Positions 30,555-63,233 of a stretch of DNA of 64,000 bases are shown here, piece after piece. The notes under the pieces are model-generated. The model searched no databases and was not told the origin of the DNA. It saw nothing but the letters and a program-made list of their open reading frames with translations. The stretch comes from Polytrichum commune (taxonomy: Eukaryota > Streptophyta > Polytrichopsida > Polytrichales > Polytrichaceae). Position numbers and translations under genes: made by a program. Location of the stretch: the NCBI GenBank assembly GCA_950295325.1, contig OX485803.1:10416001-10480000 (forward strand). The letters are read 5' to 3'. Within the stretch, counting starts at the first letter, position 1. Each line of letters starts with the position of its first letter.

Positions 30555-33500
30555 ATGGCGCAGCTGCCGAGTCTCGACAACGCTCCGGTCAATCTCACGA
30601 GTCTCAGGTGTGTTATTTTTCCACTTCATGATGGTATTGCATTCTCAAGTGATTTCCATTATCTGATTGATTGCATTTTTTTGATGATTTTGTGGTCAGG
30701 GAGCAGGCGCAGAGGGATTTGGGAGAGGTTCTCGATTCTGTAAGTGATTCATTATCTCAGGCATATGCAACTGTATTGGTTCGTGATCTTGAAGCGATCT
30801 GCTAACTCAAGAGGCTCGTGGATGATCAAGTATCATAAAATTGACATAATAACTGAACTTTGGACGCATTCTCCATTATATCTGAACTCCTGTATTGTGG
30901 TGGCCGTAAATGGTGGTCCCTATTGTGATGAGATGGATCATACTGAGGAAATTGATGCAAATTACATGTTGGATTGTAATCTGGATGTAGAAGAGGATTA
31001 GATACTACATCCTAGAGTTAATCAGGTTTATACAGAGCACTTTGATAGGACACCTCGCGTCAAGCCGAAAATTGCAAACTGCTGCTGTTGTCATCGATTT
31101 CTCAATTATATGCTGTTGAAATAGACTCCCTTTGTTAGTCCAATCAAGACAGGATGTGGTCATGGACAAGTGCTTCAGTATTGTCGAAATCGTTTGCCTA
31201 TTCGAGGCGGCTTCTTGGTATGAAGTTTGGAATGTGTACATTCTGGAAATTGTATTGGAGATATCTAAGTGCATAATGTTTCCATATTCAGATGCGTGGA
31301 AAGAAGGTGCTTGTGCTCGATCCCCAACTCAGTGGGCCACTTGCTCTTATTGCGCAAACATCTTTTCTCAAGGTATTGCCTTTCCACTCCCTTCACTTGT
31401 GTAGACTGCACAAATTATATTTGAGTTACCACCTTTTTCTACTTTTGAGCACTGTTAATGTGTGGCATCATTTCTGATGTTCCTTGCAGGAGCATGGAGT
31501 TGAGAATTTGTATTATGTATCAGCCGATTCTGTACCATCAGAAAGCAAGAATGTAATTTATTTAGTACGGCCTCGCATCCCGCTTATGAGACAAATTGCA
31601 ACTCACATACAACAGGACAATCGTCAACAGTTGCAGAAAAGTTATTCTGTGTTTTTTATGCCTCGACGAACTATCAACTGTGAAAAGGTTCAGTTTGTGA
31701 AATCAATGAAACCCTATTATGCTTCCTATATTTAAGATGTAGTACCTTCTCCACCTCTCCAGGTCTTTGTTCCTCTTTGCATTCATTTCAAGGATGTTAT
31801 TGCAAACAGCAGTTTCTTATTCTTTTTTAGAGGGGGATTTACTGGTCTTGTATTAGAGAGTCTATTCTTTATTCAGTTGCTAGACAATGTTTTAGATTGC
31901 AAACAATGCTGGACCTTTTACTTTCCTACAATTAGTACAAACTTCTTGTTCTAATACTGAATCACAAAGGTTCCACATTTTCTGCGTGCAGCTGGTTATA
32001 TTAACCAGCTATGACTGGTATTTAGCCTCACGTTGAGATAAGAAGTCACTCTGTAATTTGTGGAATTCTAGAAAAGGTTTAGGATGTCTGAAATATTATA
32101 TTTACTTTCTGAGCTGACAGTCATCATCTAGCAGTCCCAGATAATCTGTATATAACAGTGTGGGAAGATGTTCCAGATAAAGTAGTTATTCTAATTTAGT
32201 TTTCACCATGTTGTAATCCTCTAGTGCCAGTCAATATACACATTATTGGAAGTTCTTTAGTAGCAGATTGATCTTTGATAAGCCCAAAGTTATTTTTGAG
32301 GTTGTGTAAACCATGCTTTCCAAGCCCAAGTGGGATAAAGCTGATGCACTACTTGATCTATCGCTCTATCTGAAGTAGGTGCTAGAGGAGGAAGGAGTTA
32401 TTACAAATCTCACCATTGGAGAGTATCCTCTCTACTTCATCCCATTTGATGAAGATGTGCTGTCTCTAGAGCTGGAGCGTTCTTTCAAGGTGCAATCTAC
32501 TTCCTCTGTTTTCTCATTTCCTGTTTCTATGGTTGTTATGGTCCTCCATAGAACTAACCTGAGTGGGCCTAAATTATTTTGCAGGAAATTAAAGTGGATG
32601 GGGATGCAAGTGCTCTGTGGTATGTTGCAAGGGCACTTACCAAGCTTCAGGTACATTATTCCCTCACTACTTCACCAACAAGACAGAGATTCAGAAGGTG
32701 TCTTTAGAAAGTGACATGTGACTATCTTGTCATGATTTGTGGCAGGATATGTATGGTGTCATACCTAACATCAAGGGGAAAGGCAAGACAGCTGAGAAAG
32801 TTGCGGATATTCTTAGCCGAATGCAGCGAGAGCAGCCCCCTCCTCTTCCTGCATCGGTATGTTGGTATACTATGTCCTACCTCAGGCATGTTGTTTTAGC
32901 CTTCTTGCTCAGACTGCTACCCAGATTTCTCTAGTTCCAATTTTCTCACGCCACTATGTTGGTGTTAATATGTGTTCTTCACTAGATTGGTAAGATGCAA
33001 GTAGTTTGCTGTTTGTGAATGAATGGTGTTTGTGAGCTTGTTCGTGACAGAACCCTCCGCTAGCCTGCGGGTGAAGAGACTCTTCATTTACGCTGCCTTC
33101 CTCAAGAAGCAGCGTTTGTATCTATATCTATCCATGTGGCTGGCTCATGATCCTTGTCTTTGTATCATGATGTATAGGCAAGACCTCCTGAGATAGACAC
33201 ACTTATCCTTCTTGACAGACAGGTACTATTGAGTTCTTCATCCCTTTCTGACTTTGGTTACTGTGAAGTCATTGTGATTTTTTTAATTCTGTTGACTGCT
33301 CTTAATATTTTCTAGTGCTCACTGTACTTACCCTGTATCAAAAGGGATTAGACATGTAAGTCATCAAGATTAGAGGAATCAAGTGAAGCAGATCATGACA
33401 GTTCATTTACCTTGAATTATGTTTTTAGCTCTTTTTGGGTTTTCGTGAACTATACAGCAAAGTTATGCTTTCTATAGTTCACATTTTCTTTTTGTGCTGA

Positions 33501-41689: not shown

Positions 41690-44420
41690 ACCCCAAAGAC
41701 TACAACCCAACCCACAACACCCACCTCTTCACCCAACACTACACACACAACCACCTACACAAAACACATCACAAAAACTACCCACAAACTCAAACCAAAG
41801 ATGTCCACTTCATTGACAAACCAATACATATTCCACAAATCCACATATCCACATATCCACATGAACATGATATAATGTAACCCCGACACAAATATAAACA
41901 CCACAACACCAACCCTCCACATTTCTTTCGCCCATAGCACGCCTCCACACATTGACAAGCTCCACCCACCATGAATTTTCTACCACACACATTCAATGGC
42001 TTTGAAACCAATACCAACAACACTACAACTCCTCAATCACCCCAACACTTGACCCCTGCCCCAAAATTTAATAACTAAACTAACATGGCTCACCCAAAGA
42101 TACATATCCAATCTACCCCCCCCCCCCCGCCTCCCTACCAACCCTATTTTACTCAAACAAGCGGCACATAAGGTAGAGGGTGCTAAAACCAACACCCCAT
42201 CCAAAACCAACACACCTATAAACGCCTCCCAATTGCCAACACTCTACAACCTTGAACCGTACCCGGCGGTGTAGGAGTGTCTGGGCCCACGAAGTGACGG
42301 TTTTAGGTACCATAAGTGGTGCCACCTCATAGCGGCCTCAATGACCTTCATGTAGGGTATGTAACGGGCTCCACTCTATCTCGGGTTGGTTCAAGATGGG
42401 ATTAGGGTGGCTTGTCAACGCCTATTCTAGTCATTCTATTCACAACGCCAAGGAGGTAGGCCCACAAAGCACAAAAGGGTCATTTCCCGGGATGCAAAGG
42501 GGATCGGTTCCCGGGATGCAAGGTGATGGTTTTGCAAGCGAACCAAGAGGATCATGGAGGTAGCCGTGTGGCTTTGCATACCATTACTACTTGGGCTTTG
42601 ATGTAGTTTGGGTCTAGTACCCAGCTATGTTGTGTTGGTTCTAGGCAATGAAGGTGGGGGTCCTCATCATATGCGAGGTTGCCATACACATGGCCTATGG
42701 ATTGGTATAAGGAAGCTAGTAGTTTTGACTTTGAATATTCATCAAATATTCAATTGAGACTAAAAATATTTTTTCTTTCTTGATACCTATGTTTAGCCCA
42801 AAGGCTAATATGAATATATATTTTATATATCAACCACATAGCCATATGTATGTGCAATAGCTTAAAGTGTTGGTTTAAGCACCCTCTACCTTACAAACCC
42901 CAAGGCCCTCACCATTCTCATCCTACCACATGAAGATTGGTATAACAAAAGACATCCCTTTATTGGACCCCACCTAGACACCCATGTACTTGCCCACCTC
43001 AATCCACACATGCCATCCCCAAACATGTTTCCCAACACACCAAGCAAGTGCCAAACCCCAAGAAATAATGATTTGTGTATACACAAATTTAGGAGCCACT
43101 CCATCATTCCCATCTTCACTGCAAGATTCAAATATTGCCTTGAAGTTGCATTACACCTAACATACTTACCCATCACACAAAATCCCACCCCACTGGACAC
43201 ACCAAGGTCATCATGTCCAATAAATGGAAACACGATCCCAATCCAAATACCCCACCTACTCCTATATCTTCACAGACAACCTCAACTTTATCTACCTAAT
43301 TCACAACCACCTCCACCAACCCTCCTCCCAACACAACCACCCAGACAAACTACTCATATAAGTTAAATACTTATGACTAGCACAACACACACACCCTTTC
43401 ACATCCAAAAGATCCGGCACACACTCAAGCATACTAGGAAATGAAACCGCCGATAAACTCGGCAAATACAGTGCTTAAAACCCCCTCGAAACGCTACTCC
43501 CCCAACACATACCGCACATACCACCCCTTTTTGGCACTTCAAAATCCTTTTAGAATACCCCCATACTACACCCATCAGACACCTTAAACCCTACATACAA
43601 AAGGAATACACACATTAACTTACGGCCAACACACTCCTTCAATACCCATACGTAGCAAAATGGTCCAACAACCCACTAGTTCACTCTTCCCTTTCCAACT
43701 ACTTCTAGTCATCATCCCAATGCACATATGCCCAAATCACACAAGCCCTCAAACTATGATACGGTCAATACATGGGCAATCGAAGAAAACACACCATTTG
43801 GCCCAGCCAATTCCCTTCTTCCCTTTGCAACCTTTGTTCATTACTCAAAAAACTGACACATGCCTCCACCTACTCTCCATAAGCACAAACACCACCCTCA
43901 ATAACATCCAAATTATTAAACACAACAAAAGTTGTATGGCAAATATACAAACTATTCCTCTCCCATTCCTCAACAACATACACATTTCTAATGAACGTCA
44001 ACACCCACCTCAGAACACCCCCTGAGAACACCACCTCTCCATGGCTATACATGTGCCTCTGCACCACAAGACCATGCCAATGCCTTGTTAGACTCCAACC
44101 TTATCATCACTACCACACTCTAGACCAACCCAAGAATTGCCAAGATCACAATCCCACCCCCGCCACCCAACGGAATTTTTTTTATAGTACCAACCTTTAG
44201 TGGACGCACTAGAAGAGGCTAGATGGTACGTAACACTCACTACCCTGACATCAAACATCCGTGGAGGGATACACATGAACATCATCACCAACCTCTTCGA
44301 GCAATGATACATACCTTCAATGCCCATACACGCATGCATGCAACAAATCCATTTGATAGCTATCAAATACCTCACACGACTCATGCTCAACAAACAAAAA
44401 TTTGAAAACCATTAGTCACT
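41690..44420 (+). mobile_element. Degenerate non-LTR retrotransposon (LINE) 3' part, A/C-rich sense strand
   Basis: Translation in shifting frames shows a LINE C-terminal region. YTDNLNFIYLI-type RNase H start lies at about 43270, SILGNETADKLGKYS at about 43423-43476 (classic RNase H 'GNExADxLAK' motif), RYGQYMGN-like text at about 43755-43780, a Cys-rich tail with CLCTTRPCQC at about 44050-44080, and IAIKYLTRLMLNKQKFENH near 44355-44405. The same order occurs in the LINE at 60375-61668, so the family assignment is mutually supported. Many stops and frameshifts make it inactive. No reverse transcriptase core is left. A 721-bp element interrupts it at 42171-42891. The sense strand is strikingly poor in G. 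Confidence 0.75.
42171..42891 (+). mobile_element. 721-bp TIR element, copy 1, inserted in the LINE
   Basis: Begins AGGTAGAGGGTGCTAAAACC and ends with the inverse, GGTTTAAGCACCCTCTACCT, about 25 bp of terminal inverted repeat. It is flanked by TA on both sides, fitting a Tc1/mariner-type target. No long frame is present inside, so it is non-autonomous. A copy of exactly the same length lies inverted at 45312-46032. Confidence 0.85.
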
Positions 44421-45311
44421 AATACTCCCCACCTAAACATAGACAAACAACAAAATCCCAAGAATGAACTCTACAACATGTTGCCCAAACCCACACAAAC
44501 AACTTAGGTAAAGAGATAGCCAAACTCCCAAGAGTCACCCCTAGGAATCAAACCCAACACAAATTGCAATGAACTGAGACTACAAGCCCTTGTATTACCC
44601 ACCCTTGAGATGCACAACACTGGCAAACAAAACATATAACCCCCTCAACTGGACCTACAATGCCCATGTCATTTGCCATAGCACTTGTCCCATAACCATG
44701 CTCAATATACCCACTCCAGGTTCACATATGAGCTCACGGCTATGATCAAGATGAAATGTCCCTCATTCACGCTAGCACTAGTGGTTGGTGTCGTCTCTTT
44801 CTCTCTCTCTCTAGTAAGTATTCAAGTATTAGGAAGACAATGCTCAACATGTGCAAATTATCACTCATACATCCCATGCATGTAAACCATCAAAACATTG
44901 AACCCCAAAGAGTGAAAAAAACTCTAGTCTTTGCTATACATTAAAATATCAAGACTTTAACTTGAAGGTCCAACCTCACTTGTGTTGTCTCAAAAACTCC
45001 CACAAACATATACTATGAGGTTAGTGAGAATACAACATGTGTTTACAACCATAATTCACGTACTAATATACCTTATTTGCTATGTCTCCTTGTACATTAT
45101 TCTTCTCTTCAACAACTATAACAACAAGGAAGAGCTTGAGAAGAGCACCGCATTAGAGCAAGGATTAAGGTTAGAGGATACTTAAGTATGATTAGCCTTC
45201 CCCTCTTTTCATACTTAGATCTTTGCCACATGCCCATCATATTTACCCTAAGTATAATGAAGTTAATCCCATAAAGGGCAACTTGTACAAACATAAGGGT
45301 TTTTTGACATA
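44421..45311. other. Spacer between LINE end and second 721-bp element
   Basis: No gene seen. A possible RNA polymerase III B-box-like GGGTTTGATTCC lies on the minus strand at about 44541-44552 but without a convincing tRNA fold or A box. Confidence 0.35.
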
Positions 45312-51760: not shown

Positions 51761-54700
51761 TAGACATGGGGTGGGGGGTAGCTTAATACCTATTTCTTAA
51801 TAGGTGGACTAGAGGTAGTATTGTATATTAAGTGTTAGATGCATATTATGTTTAGTGGTTCCTTTAGTGGTCTTGGTGCTTGTTTCTTTTCAAGTTTTCT
51901 TTTGTTTAGGATGATGTGTGGTAGGTATCGTATAGATATCTGATAAAAGTTTCCTATTAAATTTGGGATTTTATTGTGAAGAATCTTGAGATCTATAAGA
52001 ATTTGAGTGGTAGCAGTAATGGAGCCTCTATTCCTTGAAGTGATGATCTTTGGGGGGAGAACCATCCATCCTTGTTGGGTTAGTAAAGGTAGGAGTATGG
52101 GCCAATAGGGTGTTGGCTAGTGCGTTAAATGCCTTGTTATGTCTATTGGTGCAAAGGTTGTTTATGTGTTTTTGTGTTTATTCGTGTAGCATGATAGTAG
52201 ATGGAGGCAATTGTCATTTTCTTGTAATTTGCATAGGTTACAAAGTGGAGAGATGTCTTGTTTAGGGATGTGTTTTTTTGGGAAGTTTCCCAAGTATGAG
52301 CCATAGCGGAATTTCAGTACTTGTGTGATTTGGGCATCCGTGATCCATGATGTATCCCAAAATAGGTTAGACCATTTTAAATGTAGTTCATTGGTGGAAA
52401 GCCATTTTTTTCATTTGATATTGTGTTTGAGGCGTGTGATACAAGCGCACTTTGGTATTCTTTGTGCATGTAATTTTGTAGGCTTTTGAATGATCTATTG
52501 TGTTATTTCAAGGTGAGGAGGTTGGAGGGTCAAAATGGTGTTTCTATAATCTAGGGTTCTAATGTTTTCTTTCTTTTTTGGTTAGTTTGTATGTTTCATC
52601 GCTCCTTATGACATTCATGTGGGCTCTAATTGGAATGTTGTGTGAGGTATTTTGGATGGCATTGATTATGCTTGTGATGAGGAGTTTGTCTGGATGGTTG
52701 TCTAATGTGGTTAATTAGAAGGTACATGTTGTTGAGGCCCTTACCAGACGGACGGCAGGCAATTTCGCCGTGCATGCTAGGAAAACTTGTAGGCTTGCTA
52801 TAGCCACTTCACCCCAATCTCGCTAGAGCCATCACACGGGCGGCAGGAAGTTCCTCATCATTGACGACGACTAGGCACGGAGATTCGGCGAGAGAGGGCG
52901 GGAGAGAGCGGGAGAGGACGGTCTCGGTGGGCCAGGGGGTGGCCACCACCGGATTCCATGGGTTTCCGGTGGGAATCCCCTGGTAGTTCCGATGGCCTAA
53001 ATTCTTGGACACGTCATCATGCCTCCCCTCATAATGCTGCTTGTGTGGTAAGCGGCAAGGTTGCTCGGCCAATCAGGGCCACCGGTTCATGGAAGTTGCC
53101 GGTGGTGTGGCAAGGGCCTCACGCTATATGTCAAGATGAATGTGTCAGTGGTAAGTGACTTTGTGTGTGCTATTGCAATTAGTAATGCATATAATAATGC
53201 TCTTAGGATGTTCGCATAGCCAAGTAGTTTTATGGCCATGTGTATTTTTGTAATGGGTTGTTGAAGACCCCTAATTTTGCAGTGTTTCCTTCCATGTCCA
53301 GGGGTGTAAATGAGATGTTTGTGGAGTATGATTTTTTTTTTTGGGGGGGGGGATCTTTGTGGATGTAATGTGGTGATTTTGGATGGGAAAGGTGTGTGCT
53401 GTGCGGAAGGGGGGGAGGGTGGTGGTGTAGTGTTATGCCATTCTTTAGGGATTGTAGTGGATGGGGTGTGTGTTTGAGTGCACAAAAGTTGAGATGCACG
53501 TTTGGTTGTGTTTTTGTGAGATGATTACTATTGAGGTGAGGAGTGGTTTTTTGGTGTTGTAGTTTGAGGGGAACACGGTTGATTGTGGGTGTTGTACTAT
53601 TAGAGGGGACATCGTGATGATAGGTGTTACATTTGTTGGTTGGAGTGGGTTAAATGCATTTTGTGTCCAATCATCATGGTTTATGATTAGTACGGTGGTG
53701 GAGTTTGGGTCGGTTTGGGCTCCTAGTCTAGCCCATTTTATAGCTTTGGGACATCCTCTATGTTTAGTATATGTGCAAGGCCATGCCCATTCCATTGATT
53801 TGAGCCAAGTATGTTGATCCAAGAGAGCCAAAGACGTTATCTATGTCATGTGGGGAGTGATCTTGAGTGAATTTGGGCATGTGGGTGAGTTCAAACGTGT
53901 TGGTGAGGTTGTCTAGTATATATGAGGGGAGTGTTTGGTGGGTGGGTGGGGTAGTACTTGGGGGTGGTGTGCCAAGGTATTCAATATATCGGTTTATTAT
54001 TATGATTTTTTCCGTGGTGAAGTCTTGGGTTAGTGATGAAAGGATAAAGGTGTTTGTGGTTATATGTGTGGAGTATCGTTCCCATAGCCATGTGAGTCTT
54101 TCAAGTGGGATGAAAGCATAGTAGTTGCCTTTGTGGTCAAGAATTTTTGCAATGGGGAGAGATGGGAGGGATTTGTATCATGGGTTTGTTGGTGATGATG
54201 TACTTGTTTGAGCTACATGCATGAATGCTTATATCTAGATGTGGAATTAGTAAGGTGCACATGACAAGTTATAAATGTTGGTTTAAAGGCCATTATATGG
54301 GTAATGGGGATTCCCATTGGTTGGGTTTAGGTGTTTTGTCTAGTTTGTGTGATGAGGGCGGGAGGGGTGGTAGTTTTAGTTCATGTTGGGTGGGGTTTGG
54401 TCTATAGTACATGGTTGGGGAAAGAGGGCTACAATTTGTAGAAGTGCATTTTTCATTATATAGAATTTGGTATTATATTCTTGTTGGAATTTGTGGAAGG
54501 TTAGAATACGCGTGTTCATGAGACCTTGTATTCGAGGTACTAATGCTAGGTTGAGAGTGGCTAGTATTTTGAGGAATTGTTTTGAGTTAGTTTTTTGGTT
54601 GGGGTGAGAGTGTTGTAGAAGAGGTTTTTGAACAAGTTGTCTTGGAGGAGCCACTTGTTGAGTGGGGAATTTGGTATTACTGAGTTGATGTGTATTTGAA

Positions 54701-57200
54701 AGTTTTTTTTAGTATGTGGAGGCTAGGGATCTCACAATGGGGGCTCTACACATGCTTGTGAGTTGAAGTGTGGGAGGTGTTAAGCTCCTCCATATTTGGT
54801 GACTATGAATTTTGCTAGACCTTGGTACATTTGATTGGTTGGTCCTAGGTCATTAAAGTGTTTGGTTCAATTGTTCGCTAACATGGTGGCATATCTTGGA
54901 GGAGTGAGTGTGTTCCTATGCCGAATGCCTCTCTTAGTAGTTGAGTAAAGATGTTGGGGGTGTTTGTTGTGAGATTGTAGATGTATTTTGTGAGTTTGAT
55001 GAGTAGTGTGTCCATTCTCCTAATGTTTGGAATTGAGAACAAGGTTGCATAGATCCAATACAAGGCTTACCCACTCGACGCCATTAAACTTATAGGCAAC
55101 ATATATTGGGGAGCATCCACGTCCTTCTAGGGAGCCAGATTCACAGCCACTCCTCTAATCCAAATCATACGAGGCAATGTTTCTCATAGGGCAGAAGCCT
55201 TCTTGGCTATGGTGTAGGATTCTATGATGTTCTCCAAATGTGGTGAGTAGGGAGGTTAGCGTGCTTGTGAAGGGTTTGTATATGGTGCAAGCCAATGCAA
55301 TTGGGTTCATAATTGGTGACTATGATGGGGTTGTCTTTCTCGTGTAGTAAGATGGTGCTACTATGTTTCCATTCCTTGGGTATGGCAAATTGGTGGTAGC
55401 ATTGTAGGAAAATAGGAACATCATATCATGAAGGTTGTTGGGTAGGGCTTTTAGGATGTCACTTGGGATTCCATCTGGGCATAGGGCCTTTCGTTTAAGA
55501 AGGTTTTTGAGGCATGTGTTGTATGTGGTTTTGTTCAACATTTGGGTTAAGGTGGCTTGAGGGCTGGTTATTTTTCTAACTTACATCTTTTATTAATTTG
55601 CCATGGATATTGTCTAATTGCTCAAATACATTCAAAGGGATGGTCTACTAGGTTCGAGCATAGAGGGGCTTCACTGTTGATTGATTATGTTTGTGTATTA
55701 TATGTGATGTTGGATGCAATGTCTGGATGTGTGGCTAGATTGCCATTGTTGTGTATAAGACTCTAATTGGGTAGCATGTTGTGGATTGAAGATTTTTGTG
55801 TAATTTTTTGGTAATTTTTCTGATGTTTAATGGTATTTGTATCAATCTTGCAATTTTGTGTGGTTTGGTTGGTGGTAATTTTCTTGGCTTCATGTTTTGC
55901 TTATTTTTCTATTTTTGCTTGTGATATGTTCTATCCATTGTTGGGGTTCATGTGAGTTGTTGGAGTGTAAGGGGGGAGGAGGGGAGGGATGTTGGGAATG
56001 CTTCGTACTTTGGATGCTTGGTTGGGTGTGCCATTGGGGGTGTGTTGGGAGGGCGGTGTCTCTTATAACTTGTTTGATGAGATGGTATGTGTTGAGGTGT
56101 TTATTTCATTGTTTTAATTTGTTGCAAGGTAGGAATTCACCTTGTTGTTTTGTTTGTGGGGTGGGCATTAGGGACTCGGGGGTTGCGAATGTTTGTATGG
56201 CACAATCGCTAATGGAATGTATTTTAAGGTTGATTAATTCTTGTGCTTCAATCCATTCTTTAGGGGGTAAGGTTGTGGTTTCTTGTAGTGAGTTGACAAA
56301 TATGGGTGAAGTTGAGTTCGATGAATTTAGTTAGGAATGCATTTATGTTCATTGATGGTATTGGGTATATGTATTGGGCCATAGAGCCGGTTTGTGTTAC
56401 ATGTGTTCTTCTTACACGGTGATGAAGGGGGGGGGGGGTGACTGGGAAGTGGTCTAAGTTGAGGTTGATGTGTGTGTTTGTTTGACATTGTTGATGGTTG
56501 CAGTCCTTCATGGGGATGTAAAAGTTGTCTACTAGTATTGGGGAATGTGTTGGATACATGTTGATTATTAGTTCAATTGTTGATTGTATGAGGTGTAGGT
56601 CTTCTTCATACGATGGCATGTACATGTGGACGAGGAATATAAGTGTGAGAGGTTTATAATTTGGAGGTATGGGGTTAGTTCTTTGGGGGTTGTCATCTTG
56701 GTGATGTTTCTAGTATAGGCAATTGTTTTATGTATCATTGTAAGGAGGCCTCCTTGGGTGGGGTGATATATAGAATATATGGTCTTCTTAGGCATGTGAT
56801 GGCGTTGGTTGTGTTGTTGTAGATGATTTTGTTTGATGGGAATTGGACATCTTCAAATCACGTGGTTTTGTTTCTTGGCAAATTTGTTTCTTTGATGCAA
56901 ATAATTTATGAGGGGTGCCATTAATGTTGGCACTCTGGTGGAGGTCTTGTAGGTTGGTGCTAATGTGGGCATAGTTCCAAGTGAGGTAAGTGATTGGGGT
57001 ATTTGAAGTGGAGTTTTGTTGGTTGGGGGGGGGGTGTTGATAGGTTGGTGTGTAGTATGTGAGAAGCCTTGTATTGGATCTAATATGTTTAAGGCTTCTT
57101 GGACTTCTTGGAATACTTGGGGTGGGTAAGCTGGGAATTATTGTTGGATTATGTAGGTATGGTGTTGTTTGTGACAATGTTTGAGCCATTTGTTCACACT
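51761..57200 (-). mobile_element. Degenerate LINE with endonuclease and RT remnants, G/T-rich on + strand
   Basis: Read on the minus strand, endonuclease pieces come first: ITYLTWNYAHI near 57000, GGLLTMIHKTIAYT near 56740, ILVDNFYIPMKDC near 56530. A reverse transcriptase start follows, ALCPDGIPSDILKALPNNLH, at about 55430-55490, then HEKDNPIIVTNYEP-type text at about 55310-55350, ending in C-terminal sequence near 53.5-54.1 kb. This is the order of apurinic-endonuclease-type LINEs. Numerous stops and frame changes and no intact catalytic YADD box show it is dead. An upstream frame (57138-57566) may be its first ORF or leader. Both outer borders are approximate. A GC-rich insertion interrupts it at about 52734-53120. 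Confidence 0.72.
52734..53120. mobile_element. GC-rich insertion with short inverted ends
   Basis: In sharp contrast to its G/T-rich surroundings, this ~387-bp block is GC-rich and balanced. It begins GAGGCCCTTACCAGACG and ends with CGTGTGGCAAGGGCCTC-like sequence, giving inverted GAGGCCCTTRCCA ends, with weaker GGCAGGCAATTTC/GGCAACTTCCA similarity inside. No target duplication was identified, so the class is open. Confidence 0.55.
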
Positions 57201-58763
57201 TCTCGGAGAGGCTTTGAGAGGGATTTGATTAAAGGGATATGAGGGTTCTCTATTGTGGTGAACTTTTGTGGGTTTGAAAGCAAGCTTTTTGGTGGAAGGA
57301 ACTTTGTGAGTTTGAGATGACAATCTTTGTGAATTGCAGTTGCTAACTAAATGAGACAAGTCCGAGTCCGATCCAAGGACAGTGCATGGAAGATTGATGG
57401 AGGGGCTTTGTGAGAATCTCTTGGTGAGACTTTGTGCCTTAAGAAGAAGCATAGCATTGGTGAGATCTTTGTGGAGACAACATAGTGCAAGCCCATGTAG
57501 CCAGGGTTTGGTGGGAGAGCATTGTGAAAGAGAGTGTAGCTTGTGCTTGATGGGAAGACACTTCATAAGAGTTTGAGACTAGAGCTTGATGGAATATTGT
57601 TGAGTGATTTTGCAGATCATGTAGTGTCAGAGTGTAAGGACATAAATATAGTTGAGCAATGATCCATAATATTACCTTCACCCTCGGGTATTGGGTTGAC
57701 TCCATTCTCTCTTATTCCTTCCTCGCTCGACTCCTGATATGTAGTCCGTTCCGTAGGCTACGGTGTGTGGTCCTTGAGCTTTGATCGTTTGTGTCCGAGC
57801 TTGGATCATCAAGCTTCGACCTTGTTCTTGGCCTCCAAGTTGGGTCCTTCTCCCGATCTGGTGCTCTCGCATCACAACTTCAAGCCTCTAGTCTCTCATC
57901 TTCTAAAGCTTGCTCGGAATGGACTAGAACTCCTAAGTAAGTACGATCCTCTAAGTGAAACTACTTTCCTTCCACTCGCGTTTGTTGAAGACAAAGCTTG
58001 TCTTCATGGGACTTCACTCGCATTTGTTGAAGACCGAGCTTGTCTTGAAGAAACCAAGCCAAGGGCACAAATCACAAATCACCTCAAGAGTGATTTCTTT
58101 GAAAGCCCTGGAAACCCGAATGTGCCTTACCGGTGCTTGTTGATCTTGTGCTATAGTCTATAATCACTCCTCTTCTTGTCGTTCTTCCTCGCGATCTCCT
58201 TCATTGATGCATTCACAGCGCTAACGAGCACTGATCCAACACCGATTTCGCTGCACGTCTACCTCATTGAAGGCCGTTGTGTGAGGTGAAACCTCTTGTC
58301 TCACTCTTGTGATCAATTCTGCAGTGATCCATATGATATGTTTTGCTAGATCTACTTTAGATCTCTCTTCAAGGGTTGCTAGTGACTACATCCACTCCTA
58401 TTTTGGTCGATATTCCTCATGATCTCCTTCATTAAAGCATTCACCGCGCTTGCAAGCACCGATCCCGTCCCTACGTCAATGATTTCCGGAACATGCATTC
58501 TTACATTCAGGAAGCAATTATGGAAATGCACCTAGCCATACAAAAAAGAAAAGCAAAAAAGAAAGTCAGAGCCTTTTACCCTCACATGGGATGTCCGTTC
58601 ATTGCCTCCCTCTTATGTCCACACGAGCATGAGAGTGTAGCCATATAATATTATGGTATGGTACTTACAACACTTTCGGAAGGAGCTTGGTTTCTAAAAA
58701 TGACAGATTTGTATATTTCATAACATTACACAACTCCTTTGCTACGTTTCATGGGACCATATA
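57201..58763. other. Repeat-rich stretch between LINE and SINE
   Basis: Contains a two-copy ~47-bp tandem repeat (TTTGTTGAAGAC-AAGCTTGTCTT, about 57978-58055) and a diverged ~240-bp duplication (ATCTCCTTCATTGATGCATTC at about 58193 and ATCTCCTTCATTAAAGCATTC at about 58433). The open frame at 57765-58163 runs across these repeats and is not a convincing gene. Confidence 0.5.
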
Positions 58764-59131
58764 GATAGATAGAAACTCCGGTCCCTTTTTAGCAAGGGGC
58801 CGGCGTGAATAAAGTGTCCGTTCGTAATGTCAATGACCCGATGCCCACCGGACAAGGGGACATTGGGGCAATACTACTCTCCCCTTTTGAGGATGGGCAC
58901 TATAGTGACACACTATACTAGTTCCTAGCTAGCCACTAGTGCCTTGAAGATACCGGACATGGTATCCCCCCAAAGGGCTTTGAGGTACCCATACAACAAG
59001 GTCCAAGGACCCCCCACCATAGTTGGGTGGACTAAGGTGGTGAGCACCACACCGGCATGGGGAATAAAACCCACAACCTCCTCATTGGGGGCCATGAGCC
59101 CTAACCACCAAGCCAAGGCCCGTGGTGCCTC
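58764..59131 (-). mobile_element. tRNA-derived SINE with perfect 17-bp target duplication
   Basis: 368-bp element on the minus strand. Its head begins GAGGCACCACGGGCC and carries an RNA polymerase III A box TGGCTTGGTGG (59115-59105) and a B box GGTTTTATTCC (59071-59061), 33 bp apart, as in tRNA-type SINEs. The tail ends in TTTCTATCTATCTA repeats instead of poly(A). TTTCATGGGACCATATA flanks it exactly at 58747-58763 and 59132-59148. Its 3' ~125 bp (58764-58887) matches the end of the LINE at 61541-61666. Because the duplication is perfect, the insertion is probably recent. Confidence 0.9.
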
Positions 59132-59586
59132 TTTCATGGGACCATATATTACACGAGCATAACTCTCCTTTAATTCAGGGGTTCCCAGTTTATGGGGAGC
59201 ACTCATGTTCTAGACTTTGAGCCTTTCAAAAGGCATATGTAAATTATCAAAGATTTTTTTAATTGCAGCACGTCTTTCTTTGGAAATAAACCATCATGTA
59301 GGTACTTAAAAAATTCAATTTTTTTTTTTTATACCACTCGATTAAATAGAAAGGTCAATTGTTATGCGAACATTTTGTTGGTGCTGGTAGGATATGGGTA
59401 TTTGAGGATATTGGTGTTTTGAATGTCATGTGAGATTATATACAAGTCAAGAACCTTCACACTTGGGTAAATCACTCTAGTATGGATATCGTATCAAGGT
59501 AGTATTGATCCAAGTAGTGATTATGGACGATATACAAATCTCTCTCTCTCTCTCTCTTCATACCCACAAGGTAGCAATTTATCTAA

Positions 59587-59965
59587 CTACACTAAATATG
59601 ATATTTAGTGTCACCAATTCTAATTGTCTTGCTCAATACTAATTGCAAACCACGGTGTAGTGTCACCAACACTAAATGTTAACGTAGCATTATTTGTCAT
59701 GCCTTGTAAAATTTTGGGAGATTATAGATTTACAGTAATGCAATTATTGTCACTTACCAAGTGATTTATCATCCAAGTGTCAATCATCCATCACAATAGT
59801 TCATCACAAGTTGTTGACAAGAGAAAGTAGGGTTTTGACCAATGGATGAACTCATTCATCATCCATGACAATATTTGTTCACTTACTCATAAGAAGCATG
59901 GGATCTGAAAAGTTACCATAGTGACATTAAATACCATATGACACTTAATATCATATTTAGTGTAG
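59587..59965 (+). mobile_element. MITE family C, copy 4
   Basis: Clean 379-bp copy starting CTACACTAAATATGATATTT and ending with its inverse ATATCATATTTAGTGTAG. The end motif is itself palindromic (CACTAAATATGATATTTAGTG), so each end can form its own hairpin. Confidence 0.88.
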
Positions 59966-60284
59966 TCTTTCAATTTTGAGATTGGTATACCATTGGTGAT
60001 ATTGTGTATGGATATCATGCATTCACATCTATACCGGTCCAATATCGGTTTATTTCTTTGCGACTGCTTTCAATTAGTTTTGAAAGAAACTTGTGAAACC
60101 AATAATTTGCCAACACATCGTTGCTACAATACTTGTTCTAGAATGTGCTTGTGAGAATAATTCTAAATATCCATAAGAAATCTCTTCACAAGTTTTTTGT
60201 CCTTGGAATAAACATATGCTCAATCAAATGCCCTTCAGAGAGTGCCATGAACTTGTGTGAAACAACAATTAAAAGAAACAAAAA

Positions 60285-61982
60285 CTAGACTAAATATGAT
60301 ATTTAGTGTCACTTATTCCAATTGTCTTGCTCAATACTAATTGTAAGCCGCAGTGTAGTGTCATCGACACTAAATAATGAAATATCCAATAACTTTTGGT
60401 CTAATCCTGCAATTACAGATTCACAAAAAACAAGCCTACTAAAATTCCGTCCTGGACAATACATGGGAAATGCTAGAAAACAACTATTTTTTGGCATAGA
60501 AAGATTTCATCAATAACATGCCCGATTTGCAACTCCTTTGATGCAGACACATGGCTCCATGTACTCCTAAAATGTAATCAACACCACATACATGCCCTTA
60601 GAACCAAAAGACATAACAAAGCGGTATGGGAACTAAGAAAATTAATTTTATCATCACAAAAATCAAGATGCTACACCCTCATGAATGCAGGGACATTTAA
60701 CAACAACCCACAAGAAAATACAGTCCCCCTATGGCTCCTACCTTGTACATGCAGACAACAGAGATGTCACTGCAACGCCATATTCAAACCTTATCTACTA
60801 TGTATTAAAGAACTTCCACACCAAAGTACTCCACCAATAAACCTGGCAGACAATCTCACCATACAATTTATTGAATTCACATACACAAATGACAGATTCT
60901 CACAAGATACAATAAAAAATTAAATTAAAAAGTATCAACCATTAATTAATAACATCATTCACCAAGGATGGAAAGTAAATCCACTTATAGTCATCTCAGC
61001 TGGTGCTAGAGGTACTACGCAGGTCCCATCAATGAAACAACTGGAAACAAATTTTAAATTATCTGAAACTTTTGTCAAACACACATTTAAAGAAACAAGC
61101 ACTATTGCTATACAATATGCCGGATCAATCCTTCTACATAAAAGATGAATAGAAAACAACCAATCAATACCAATAGAATAAAAAGAGGGGGTAGTGGTGA
61201 AGACCACTATCTGTTTTAAACAATTAGCACAGTGTCACCACTTGTCTCAGGAAGATGGGTAGGGGCTGGTTGGTTGGTACAACTTTTCTGCCTATGATAA
61301 ATTCACTAGTAGCACCAAGTCATGGATATTACAATAACGCTCAGATGGACCCAACATGAATCGAACCCGGTCTGTATAATTGTAACACAAACATCCTCCT
61401 CCAACCAACCTAGGAACCATGACTTCGCGACCATCAACATAATAAACTTCGTTTTATACCATTACAAATGATGTAAATACTTGATAATGGCTACTGTGCG
61501 TTACTTTTACTTGTTTCTGGTTACTAAAGTGTTTATTCCCGGAAGGGGAGAGTAGTCTTGTACCAATGTTCCTTTGCCCGGTGGGCACTGGCACATTGTC
61601 AAGACGAACAAACACTTTATTCACGTTGGCCTTGCAAGAGGACCGGAGTTTCTATCTATCTATCTCACCGACACTAAACATTGTCCTAAGAGTATTTCTC
61701 ATTCCTTGTTAACGTATTTGGGCATTATAGATTTACAGGGTTGCAAGTTTTGTCACTTACTAAGTGATTTTTCATTCACATTTCAATCATTCATGACAAT
61801 ATTTCATCACAAAATTGCTAGTATGCAAATTATATCAGTTTGTTTCAATAATTGACATTTGGATGAACTGAAAGTAAGTGGGGATAACAATATAAGTAAA
61901 CTTATTCATACAAAGTGTCACTACATAAATTACCACAATGACATAAAATGCCATATAACACTAAACATCATATTTACGGTAG
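60285..61982 (+). mobile_element. MITE family C, copy 5, split by a LINE insertion
   Basis: The 5' part (60285-60374) runs from CTAGACTAAATATGATATTT through TGTCATCGACACTAAA. The 3' part resumes at 61669 with CGACACTAAACATTGTCC and ends at TATTTACGGTAG (61982). Removing the LINE and one copy of the repeat gives about 394 bp, the size of the intact family members, so the interruption is certain in outline. Confidence 0.85.
60375..61668 (+). mobile_element. 5'-truncated LINE with 10-bp target duplication
   Basis: Flanked by CGACACTAAA at 60365-60374 and 61669-61678. The remaining ORF2 C-terminus reads RPGQYMGNARKQLFFG, CPICNSFDADTWLHVLLKC, HALRTKRHNKAVWELRKLI, LPCTCRQQRCHCNAIFKPYL, then INNIIHQGWKVNPLIVISAG and ARGTTQVPSMKQLE, IAIQYAGSILLHK, with about three in-frame breaks in 270 codons, so it is much younger than the copies at 41.7 and 51.8 kb. 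The CxxC-H-C pattern is the zinc-knuckle-like tail seen after RNase H/RT in plant LINEs. A 3' untranslated region of about 450 bp ends in TTTCTATCTATCTATC, the same simple repeat and preceding ~125 bp as the SINE at 58764-59131. Confidence 0.85.
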
Positions 61983-63233
61983 TTTCATTAAATTGAATCA
62001 TTATAAAACTAAACCGTCATTAGAACCTGGATCTAAGGAAGGTTTTTCCTTGAGCATCAAACCAATGCCTAGTTGAGTATTCAAGACCTATGTATGCCTT
62101 GCAAATGGTGTAGGTTTCATTCCCATGACAAGTACACTAAACAATTATATTATTGTGGGTCACAATAAAGTTTTACAGCCCACACGAATTTTCATAATAA
62201 GAAGTAACGTGGGCAACATTAATTTTCATCCCTCACCAAATTTATAGTAGAGAATTAGCGTGGACCACAATAATTGTTTTCTAAATAATTAGTGTGCTTG
62301 ATAATTTTATTTTGTGCTACTTTTGTCCCTTAACTTATACACAATGTGTTGGTCAAAAGTCTTCATGAAGACTTGGGGGAAGACCTAGGGTCTTGGACTC
62401 AAGTCAATTCCACCTTGACTAAAAAATTAGTGTGGCCCACACTAATTGTTTCCATGCTAATTTTCCACCCACATTAATAGGACTATCCATTGTAGTTACC
62501 CGTAAACTAGTATTTAAGTAATTACATATTTTTTATGAGTCTAGAAAGAAGCAAGTAGTTTTTGAAAATGTGAACACTTGTGTTTCAAGTGTTATCATAT
62601 GTACTTGCCATTTAGTCATTATGTAAGTGGTTCTATATTAAAAGACAGTGGACATGATGTGTGCAAACATTTAACATCATAGTAAAGATATTTTAAACAA
62701 GTGTGCAATGACAATCCAGTCTAAAATCGACCAAATAGTTTGAAATCATCCACACACTAGTTCATGATTTATGGACATTACTACAAAATGTGTAGAGTAT
62801 AACATGGAAAACATGCAATCCTCACTAATTATAATTTGATCTGGGACACATTTACTTTTAAGTAGGGGTGAGTGTAGGTGCCATACAATTGTTTTGTAAC
62901 CTTGTAGGTAAAATGACCAAACATTAGATCTAATGTGTATAAATACATCAAAGAGGAAGTTGCCTTAATGCCTTAATATTCGTTGATGAATAGTGTACCT
63001 CTTAAGGGGCATAACACCCTATATTGCATCACGGCAAGCCGTGATCAATATAGGGCCAACGGGCTCATATTCACGCCGGTATGAATAATACTGGCGTTTT
63101 CTTTTCTTTTCTTTTCTTTCTACCTCTTAAGGGGTGACAGTTGTAACTATGATTCAAAGTTGTCTTCTAACCCCAACACTTTTTTTCTTGGGTTATAAGG
63201 TGTCACATAATAATTTCAACTCTTATTACATTG
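61983..63233. other. Gene-free stretch
   Basis: AT-rich, no coding frame. Short related motifs (GTGGGTCACAATAA, GTGGACCACAATAA, GTGGCCCACACTAA at about 62156, 62262 and 62432) suggest decayed repeats similar in flavour to the foldback element at 49.4 kb. Confidence 0.4.

Follow-up and report, generated by a model that had tools for sequence, protein, structure and literature searches.

A SINE of the moss Polytrichum commune carries a folded 3' tail in common with LINEs of a probable Dualen/RandI-like type

In the stretch of Polytrichum commune DNA considered in this work (64,000 nucleotides in all, hereafter referred to as the window), a SINE and a 5'-truncated LINE lie about 1.2 kb apart, on opposite strands, and end in similar 3' sequences (Table 1). 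The locus raises the question of whether this tail is a genuine part of the LINE or a piece of SINE that came to lie beside it and, in the former case, of whether the SINE depends on the enzymes of such a LINE for its own copying. A partnership between the two elements had been proposed in a preliminary description of the locus; the analyses reported below support it, the dependency itself being still something that we infer from the sequences.

The shared tail in the window and in the genome

The two tails had been described as roughly 80% identical. The match was recovered, with slightly lower values: 75.7% when counted from alignment column 27 onwards and, by BLAST, about 78% across 149-151 bp (E about 1e-28), that is, overall, 76-78% across about 115-150 bp, after which the CTAT repeat follows in each copy. 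The block begins some 20 bp further upstream on each element than first described; the CTAT ending of both elements and the presence of a separate target duplication for each insertion (exact for the SINE, with one mismatch for the LINE) were confirmed. In the window, a covariance model of the tail, whose training alignment contained both sequences, retrieved the SINE tail with an E-value of 3.8e-36 and the LINE tail with 4e-33, the next match being at 0.046.

Table 1. Coordinates of the elements and of their parts in the window
Feature	Position	Strand	Remarks
SINE	58764..59131	-	head through tail hairpin ~358 bp, then (CTAT)n; exact 17-bp duplication
SINE target-site duplication, tail side	58747..58763	.	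exact 17 bp, TTTCATGGGACCATATA
SINE target-site duplication, head side	59132..59148	.	exact 17 bp, TTTCATGGGACCATATA
SINE putative tRNA-like internal promoter boxes	59061..59115	-	A-box-like and B-box-like
SINE 3' tail common to LINEs	58771..58911	-	alignment, common fold, covariance model
LINE copy, group LINE1, 5'-truncated, with 3' UTR, tail and (CTAT)n	~60375..61664	+	
Broken LINE coding end: zinc finger and restriction-like-endonuclease-like region	60465..61178	+	77% aa identity to L070
LINE 3' tail common to SINE	61518..61653	+	alignment, common fold, covariance model
LINE target-site duplication, left	60361..60374	.	14 bp, TCATCGACACTAAA
LINE target-site duplication, right	61665..61678	.	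14 bp, one mismatch, TCACCGACACTAAA
Paralogous empty site without LINE	~59587..59797	+	same window
Older degenerate LINE, like domain plan	51877..56905	-	APE, RT, PCIF1-like and C-terminal pieces
Older degenerate LINE, like domain plan	42896..44412	+	PCIF1-like, RNase H and C-terminal pieces
Fourth LINE family, 5'-truncated copy	63010..63120	+	111 bp: ATTCACG, hairpin, (TTTTC)n
Fourth-family duplication	62996-63009 and 63121-63134	.	14 bp

The proposal of a partnership had been made to hang on whether other LINE copies also end in the block. To this purpose, the genome (408 Mb, its seven large contigs amounting together to ~406 Mb) was searched with the LINE coding sequence upstream of the tail; the best 40 of 919 candidates were scored and 30 loci, window copy included, were cut out, some of which repeat earlier-cut ones (L011 = L005, L013 = L003). 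In 29 of the 30 the sequence closes with the tail block (this number counts the window copy); in the remaining one, L035, similarity to the LINE breaks off ~120 bp short of the tail. The tail, therefore, belongs to the LINE. The terminal repeat is (CTAT)n in most LINE copies and (ATC)n-like in L017 and L020.

The organization of the tail cores along contig C1 was also analysed. In its first 35.9 Mb, 10 out of 21 listed matches to a PCIF1-like domain of the LINE (see below) have a tail core on the same strand 2.2-2.7 kb downstream, compared to 0.2% of random places (the count was run on 20 of the 21 matches, and the listing shows no core downstream of the remaining one, C1:25516121). Taken as a set, the first 100 cores of the listing, which are all on C1, comprise 17 of the CT/CC type, 76 of the TT type and seven of the TC type. 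Ten of the 17 CT/CC-type cores are 2.2-2.7 kb behind a PCIF1-like LINE domain; as for the 76 TT-type cores, an exact SINE head is found 200-420 bp upstream in 27 and a PCIF1 match in none. Among these cores the SINE-like type is the commoner one, a fact that, together with the short distance between the two elements of the window, would favour the idea of a SINE fragment (the block at 61541-61666) accidentally placed beside a LINE piece. The probability of this idea is nonetheless negligible: the block is contiguous with the LINE 3' UTR in 29 out of 30 loci, on several chromosomes, and a single duplication encloses LINE and tail, with an empty site nearby, so that the LINE copies ending in the block elsewhere and the spanning duplication rule it out. 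The LINE landed in a repeat around ACTAAATATGATATTTAGTGTC, which is found at 59587-59797 and in the LINE flanks.

Regarding the SINE, its exact 35-base head occurs 416 times in the genome and the exact tail core, which the LINEs have too, 877 times, both reversed-pattern controls giving 0; copy number is expressed here by exact-pattern counts only. The 416 heads and the duplications found at 27 out of 30 loci characterize it as an interspersed element. The 30 loci examined (window copy included), picked as the best matches, form one narrow set, and all of them possess the tail block; most of these copies end in a CTAT repeat and not in poly(A) (L042, L061, and L062 differ). The window SINE shares 97% identity with copy L045, and the best-scoring copies are 98-100% identical over the queried part, from which the SINE looks young. 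Within the head, the A-box-like sequence (59105-59115, minus strand) agrees with the consensus in 10 out of 11 letters (1 mismatch) and the B-box-like one (59061-59071, minus strand) in nine out of 11 (2 mismatches). A tRNA origin of the head was also sought by covariance model, and the one copy searched, L045, gave no tRNA match to the Rfam models at E<=10; ARAGORN did not retrieve any tRNA from the window.

Three LEAFY-like places were also found in the genome (C1:40571878, C1:62299295, and C7:8635861); the piece checked, one of the three, has H and R, as in 2vy1, where the best-matching PDB chain (4bhk, from the moss Physcomitrium) has D and C. The other proteins compared, plastid PsaA and PsaB among them, likewise find their nearest PDB chains in Physcomitrium (8htu, 6l35, 7ksq); the plastid contig, 146.6 kb long, exceeds the usual length in mosses.

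Fold of the tail and relationships among the LINE groups

A structure alignment was built from 36 out of 66 tail-bearing loci (6 LINE1, 18 LINE2, and 12 SINE). The predicted common fold, ~138 nt long, consists of an outer helix around two hairpins, followed by ATTCACG with a last hairpin and then by the repeat; 93.9% of the cells pair in it. The cells changed on both sides were 30, compared to 8.0 +/- 3.5 in shuffled alignments, a value reached in 0 out of 500 shuffles, and versions of the structure slid along the alignment gave at most five. As for whole pairs, seven were changed on both sides, a figure that 24 out of 500 shuffles also reached; for the count of pair types, 405 out of 500 did so. 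Most of the paired changes fall on the LINE1 branch and, therefore, represent few independent events. Folded singly, LINE tails (two LINE2 and one LINE1) gave z-scores from -2.6 to -3.1, and the SINE tail was only moderately stable (z -1.84; eight out of 200 shuffles as good). According to these data, the SINE and the LINEs have 3' sequence and structure in common beyond the simple repeat, and the alignment predicts for the tail an RNA of several helices, common to both, in which paired changes distinguish the families.

Three LINE groups carry the tail, that is LINE1 (to which the window copy belongs), LINE2 (e.g., L019 and L034), and LINE3 (L080-L082, belonging to three elements whose open frames measure 2625-2924 aa). 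The identity of the SINE tail is 70-82% (mean 76.9%) with the LINE1 group, 79-92% (mean 85.5%) with the LINE2 group, and 83-87% with LINE3, the last value referring to two SINE copies; representative LINE2 and LINE3 tails both gave 83-87%. The preliminary description had seen in this locus two partners caught together: the tails are indeed shared, but the adjacent LINE1-group copy is not the closest match, since, judging from tail identity, the LINE beside the SINE belongs to a less similar sister group and the LINE2 and LINE3 tails are closer. We did not recover the exact donor LINE; the highest identity between a SINE tail and a LINE tail is 92%.

LINE1 and LINE2 are ~74% identical in the tail and 82-86% identical in the coding end; the greater divergence of the tail (~26% versus 14-18%) speaks against a simple sequence constraint. 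Between LINE2 and LINE3 the difference is 15-20% in the tail and ~31% over the aligned 3' kilobase (BLAST, tail included), and coding windows of 501 nt, compared end to end in a cruder way, were only 55-58% identical. LINE groups with identities down to 69% over the 3' kilobase (BLAST) thus still share the tail. Moreover, the covariance model detects LINE3, which was outside the alignment, at three out of three loci (129.6-144.5 bits), and weakly matches a remote fourth LINE family at five out of six loci (E 8e-5 to 1.3e-3, with only 2455 bases searched). This family has at least 40 scored copies among 468 candidates. Its tail in the window (63010-63120) differs but retains ATTCACGCCGG, a perfect hairpin, and a CTTTT repeat; the insert was also considered as a mini-SINE, a candidate rejected on the basis of five out of six other copies, which extend upstream into sequence resembling the LINE protein C-terminus.

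The sharing of the tail by three LINE groups, together with the ATTCACG hairpin of the fourth, suggests that the tail is old in LINEs. This bears on the opposite direction of transfer, i.e., the acquisition of the tail by a LINE from the SINE: two sequences alone give no direction, but with identities as low as 69% among the three groups, the hairpin kept in the fourth, and SINEs that represent one narrow set (though chosen as best matches), such a reverse capture appears very improbable.

The LINE protein and the insertion sites

The preliminary description could not see the LINE type, which we traced in the long copies L069-L071, whose frames are broken in places and whose last stretch is absent from the fetched sequence. 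The order of domains is: APE-type endonuclease, RT, PCIF1-like domain, RNase H, zinc finger, and C-terminal domain. The APE domain lies upstream of the RT (PF03372, E 6.1e-6 in L069 and 1.8e-7 in L070, both above the curated cut-off); the RT (PF00078, E 1.6e-25) finds its best PDB sequence matches in R2 proteins (E 9.4e-33), and the RNase H matches PF00075 with E 7.6e-15.

In the C-terminal domain, the order [KR]PD...E...KxxKY is conserved (alignment A2); [KR]PD...E...K is the order of the restriction-like endonuclease (RLE) motif. The top Foldseek match of its model (pLDDT 47.6) is R2Tg (PDB 9dou; prob 0.91, E 3.8e-3), no match of the model reaches E 0.001, and most of the 50 matches listed are nucleases of the PD-(D/E)XK kind; the sequence profile matched neither R2 nor any other protein among the PDB sequences. 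With R2Tg at the top for a weak model, no match at E 0.001, and an empty profile search, the domain is called, on this low-confidence model and the motif order, a probable RLE.

The PCIF1-like domain, placed between RT and RNase H, has a Pfam match in six out of six members (best 4.5e-14), L069 alone scoring 29.3, below the curated cut-off of 31.1. PCIF1 proteins are its top two PDB matches, with non-significant E-values of 0.16 and 0.24, and its AlphaFold model has a pLDDT of 37.3, so that the assignment rests on Pfam and on the PDB ranking. In the PDB alignment, the NPPF of PCIF1 aligns with HPHN in the LINE domain (HPPN in L086); the domain, therefore, may be inactive as a methyltransferase.

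Furthermore, a 2A-like DI[EK]xNPGP motif precedes the APE domain in two LINE groups (L069:2002, L070:484, and L088:2128, the last a LINE3 piece), and apparent degenerate repeats of it are found further upstream in L069. No protease family was found by Pfam at E<=1 in four open pieces, the ~575 aa before the L088 motif lying outside the scan. On the whole, the sequences probably represent a Dualen/RandI-like plan (APE, RT, RNase H, and probable RLE), that is, a probably dual-endonuclease LINE; an identity as plant L1 or RTE is excluded by the domain plan and by the (CTAT)n tail, which is neither poly(A) nor (TTG)n.

As regards the two degenerate LINEs, the one at 51877-56905 coincides with a strong GC skew (+0.41 at 52-56 kb), and a possible tail at 44765 goes with the other. 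An ATTTACG followed by a stable hairpin and a TATCTA-like repeat at 33086-33140 (plus strand), adjoining an apparent gene exon, is perhaps another tail.

The insertion sites of the two types of element were then compared. The SINE duplications, found at 27 out of 30 loci, measure 8-17 bp; L061 and L062 lack a full head-tail pair and L057 lacks the duplication, while L042, L049, and L051, which are within the 27, have a simple-repeat setting or an odd tail. On the LINE side, the 5' break was visible in 17 rows, and seven junctions, with duplications of 9-13 bp, were picked by eye (L010 and L014 showed no duplication; L004, L005, L008, L011, L015, and L029 showed short or misplaced ones; L013, which repeats L003, and the window copy L009 are also outside the count). 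A G precedes the duplication in 14 out of 27 SINEs and in all seven LINE junctions picked by eye. The duplication starts with T in 24 out of 27 and in seven out of seven, respectively, and has G as its second base in 13 out of 27 and in five out of seven. A G|TG-like site is, hence, common to both element types. The T at the start may partly be an artefact, the tail itself ending in T; the site fits a priming at the terminal U of the CUAU repeat.

Proposed mechanism and comparison with known systems

According to the explanation that we favour with considerable confidence, a SINE with a tRNA-like head would bear the 3' recognition signal of a Dualen/RandI-like LINE group and would be copied by the LINE protein; this would bind the folded tail in the LINE RNA as well as in that of the SINE, nick the target at G|T, prime at the final U of the CUAU repeat, and then copy the RNA into DNA. 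The SINE very probably uses the enzymes of a Dualen-like LINE to copy itself: the common sequence, structure, and repeat, the like target preference, the duplications, the APE, RT, and RNase H domains of the LINE, and the presence of the tail at nearly all the examined LINE loci point to this mobilisation. The second endonuclease (from the weak C-terminal model and the motif order), the binding, the priming, and the role of this LINE, rather than another, as the SINE mover are inferred.

In principle, the tails might be homologous and the SINE now be moved mainly by other machinery (e.g., that of L1), the tail being a relic. This would agree with the young look of the SINE and with the failure to find a LINE whose tail almost equals that of the SINE, but it appears improbable in view of the CTAT ending, instead of poly(A), of most examined SINEs (with the three exceptions given above), of the G|T preference common to SINEs and LINEs, of the tail kept in 30 out of 30 SINE loci, and of the existence of LINEs of the Dualen-like kind with open frames up to 2924 aa.

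A wider scenario can also be depicted, which we offer only tentatively: this land plant would keep living, diversified dual-endonuclease LINEs with a PCIF1-like domain (NPPF changed to HPHN), the CTAT and CTTTT families would share ATTCACG and the terminal stem-loop, and the SINE would have captured one of the tails and amplified recently. In this scenario, the PCIF1-like module might take part in the choice of the template, binding adenine or the 5' end of the RNA. A moss with several Dualen-like groups, some with frames near 2900 aa, would extend the range of the Dualen type, and a SINE with hundreds of exact-head copies would extend the Dualen habit of feeding SINEs. Such a plant system could be used for asking which endonuclease of the two cleaves the target, which shape of the RNA is recognized by the LINE protein, and in what way plants maintained or lost stringent recognition.

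The Dualen/RandI LINEs are said to go back to work by Kojima and Fujiwara in 2005, and the Dualen of Chlamydomonas contains a cysteine protease. The LINEs described here resemble them in combining APE, RT, RNase H, and probably RLE within a single element, and may differ from them in the cysteine protease, which the scan of four open pieces did not retrieve, as well as in the PCIF1-like domain and the 2A-like DI[EK]xNPGP motif. R2 provides the best fold match of the C-terminal region (R2Tg) and the best PDB match of the RT; its target, however, is the rDNA, and it is not known to have an APE or an RNase H. No restriction-like endonuclease is known from the L1 and RTE LINEs of the land-plant pairs.

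In two papers (PMC4640811, PMC3636483), APE and RLE with RT and RNase H constitute the Dualen/RandI plan. Dualen LINEs are recorded in all the Chlamydomonas relatives of one study (PMC8226300) and in cryptophytes (PMC12747079); a 2015 survey places Dualen/RandI under green algae only (PMC4438587), and the LINEs mentioned for land plants in a review of 2022 are only those of L1 and RTE (PMC9033089). According to PMC3747384, L1 and RTE were the only known partners in land-plant SINE-LINE pairs (maize ZmSINE2/3 with L1, tobacco TS with RTE), the 3' repeats being poly(A) in most L1 and of the (TTG)n type in RTE. In these pairs the SINE has a LINE 3' end as in the moss, and the maize hairpin shows compensatory changes; the conserved LINE end of maize/sorghum, however, is the last 45 nt, whereas here it is ~138 nt with another terminal repeat, and the partners belong to the L1 and RTE clades instead of being Dualen-like.

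The Chlamydomonas SINEX-1, -2, -4, -5, and -6 share tails with RandI/Dualen LINEs (PMC3747384, Tables 1-3), with repeats that are (ATT)n and (CTTT)n in the SINEs and (ATT)n and (CTATTT)n in the RandI LINEs. As in the moss, the SINE tail comes from a Dualen/RandI LINE and ends in a short repeat other than poly(A); the host, however, is a green alga, whereas here it is a moss and the repeat is (CTAT)n, and the two systems are likened by description only. In the literature searched, outside which most subscription papers and preprints lie, no Dualen LINE or Dualen-SINE pair was found in land plants. The pairing of Dualen and SINE is known from green algae; what would be new here is its host, a moss and, thus, a land plant.
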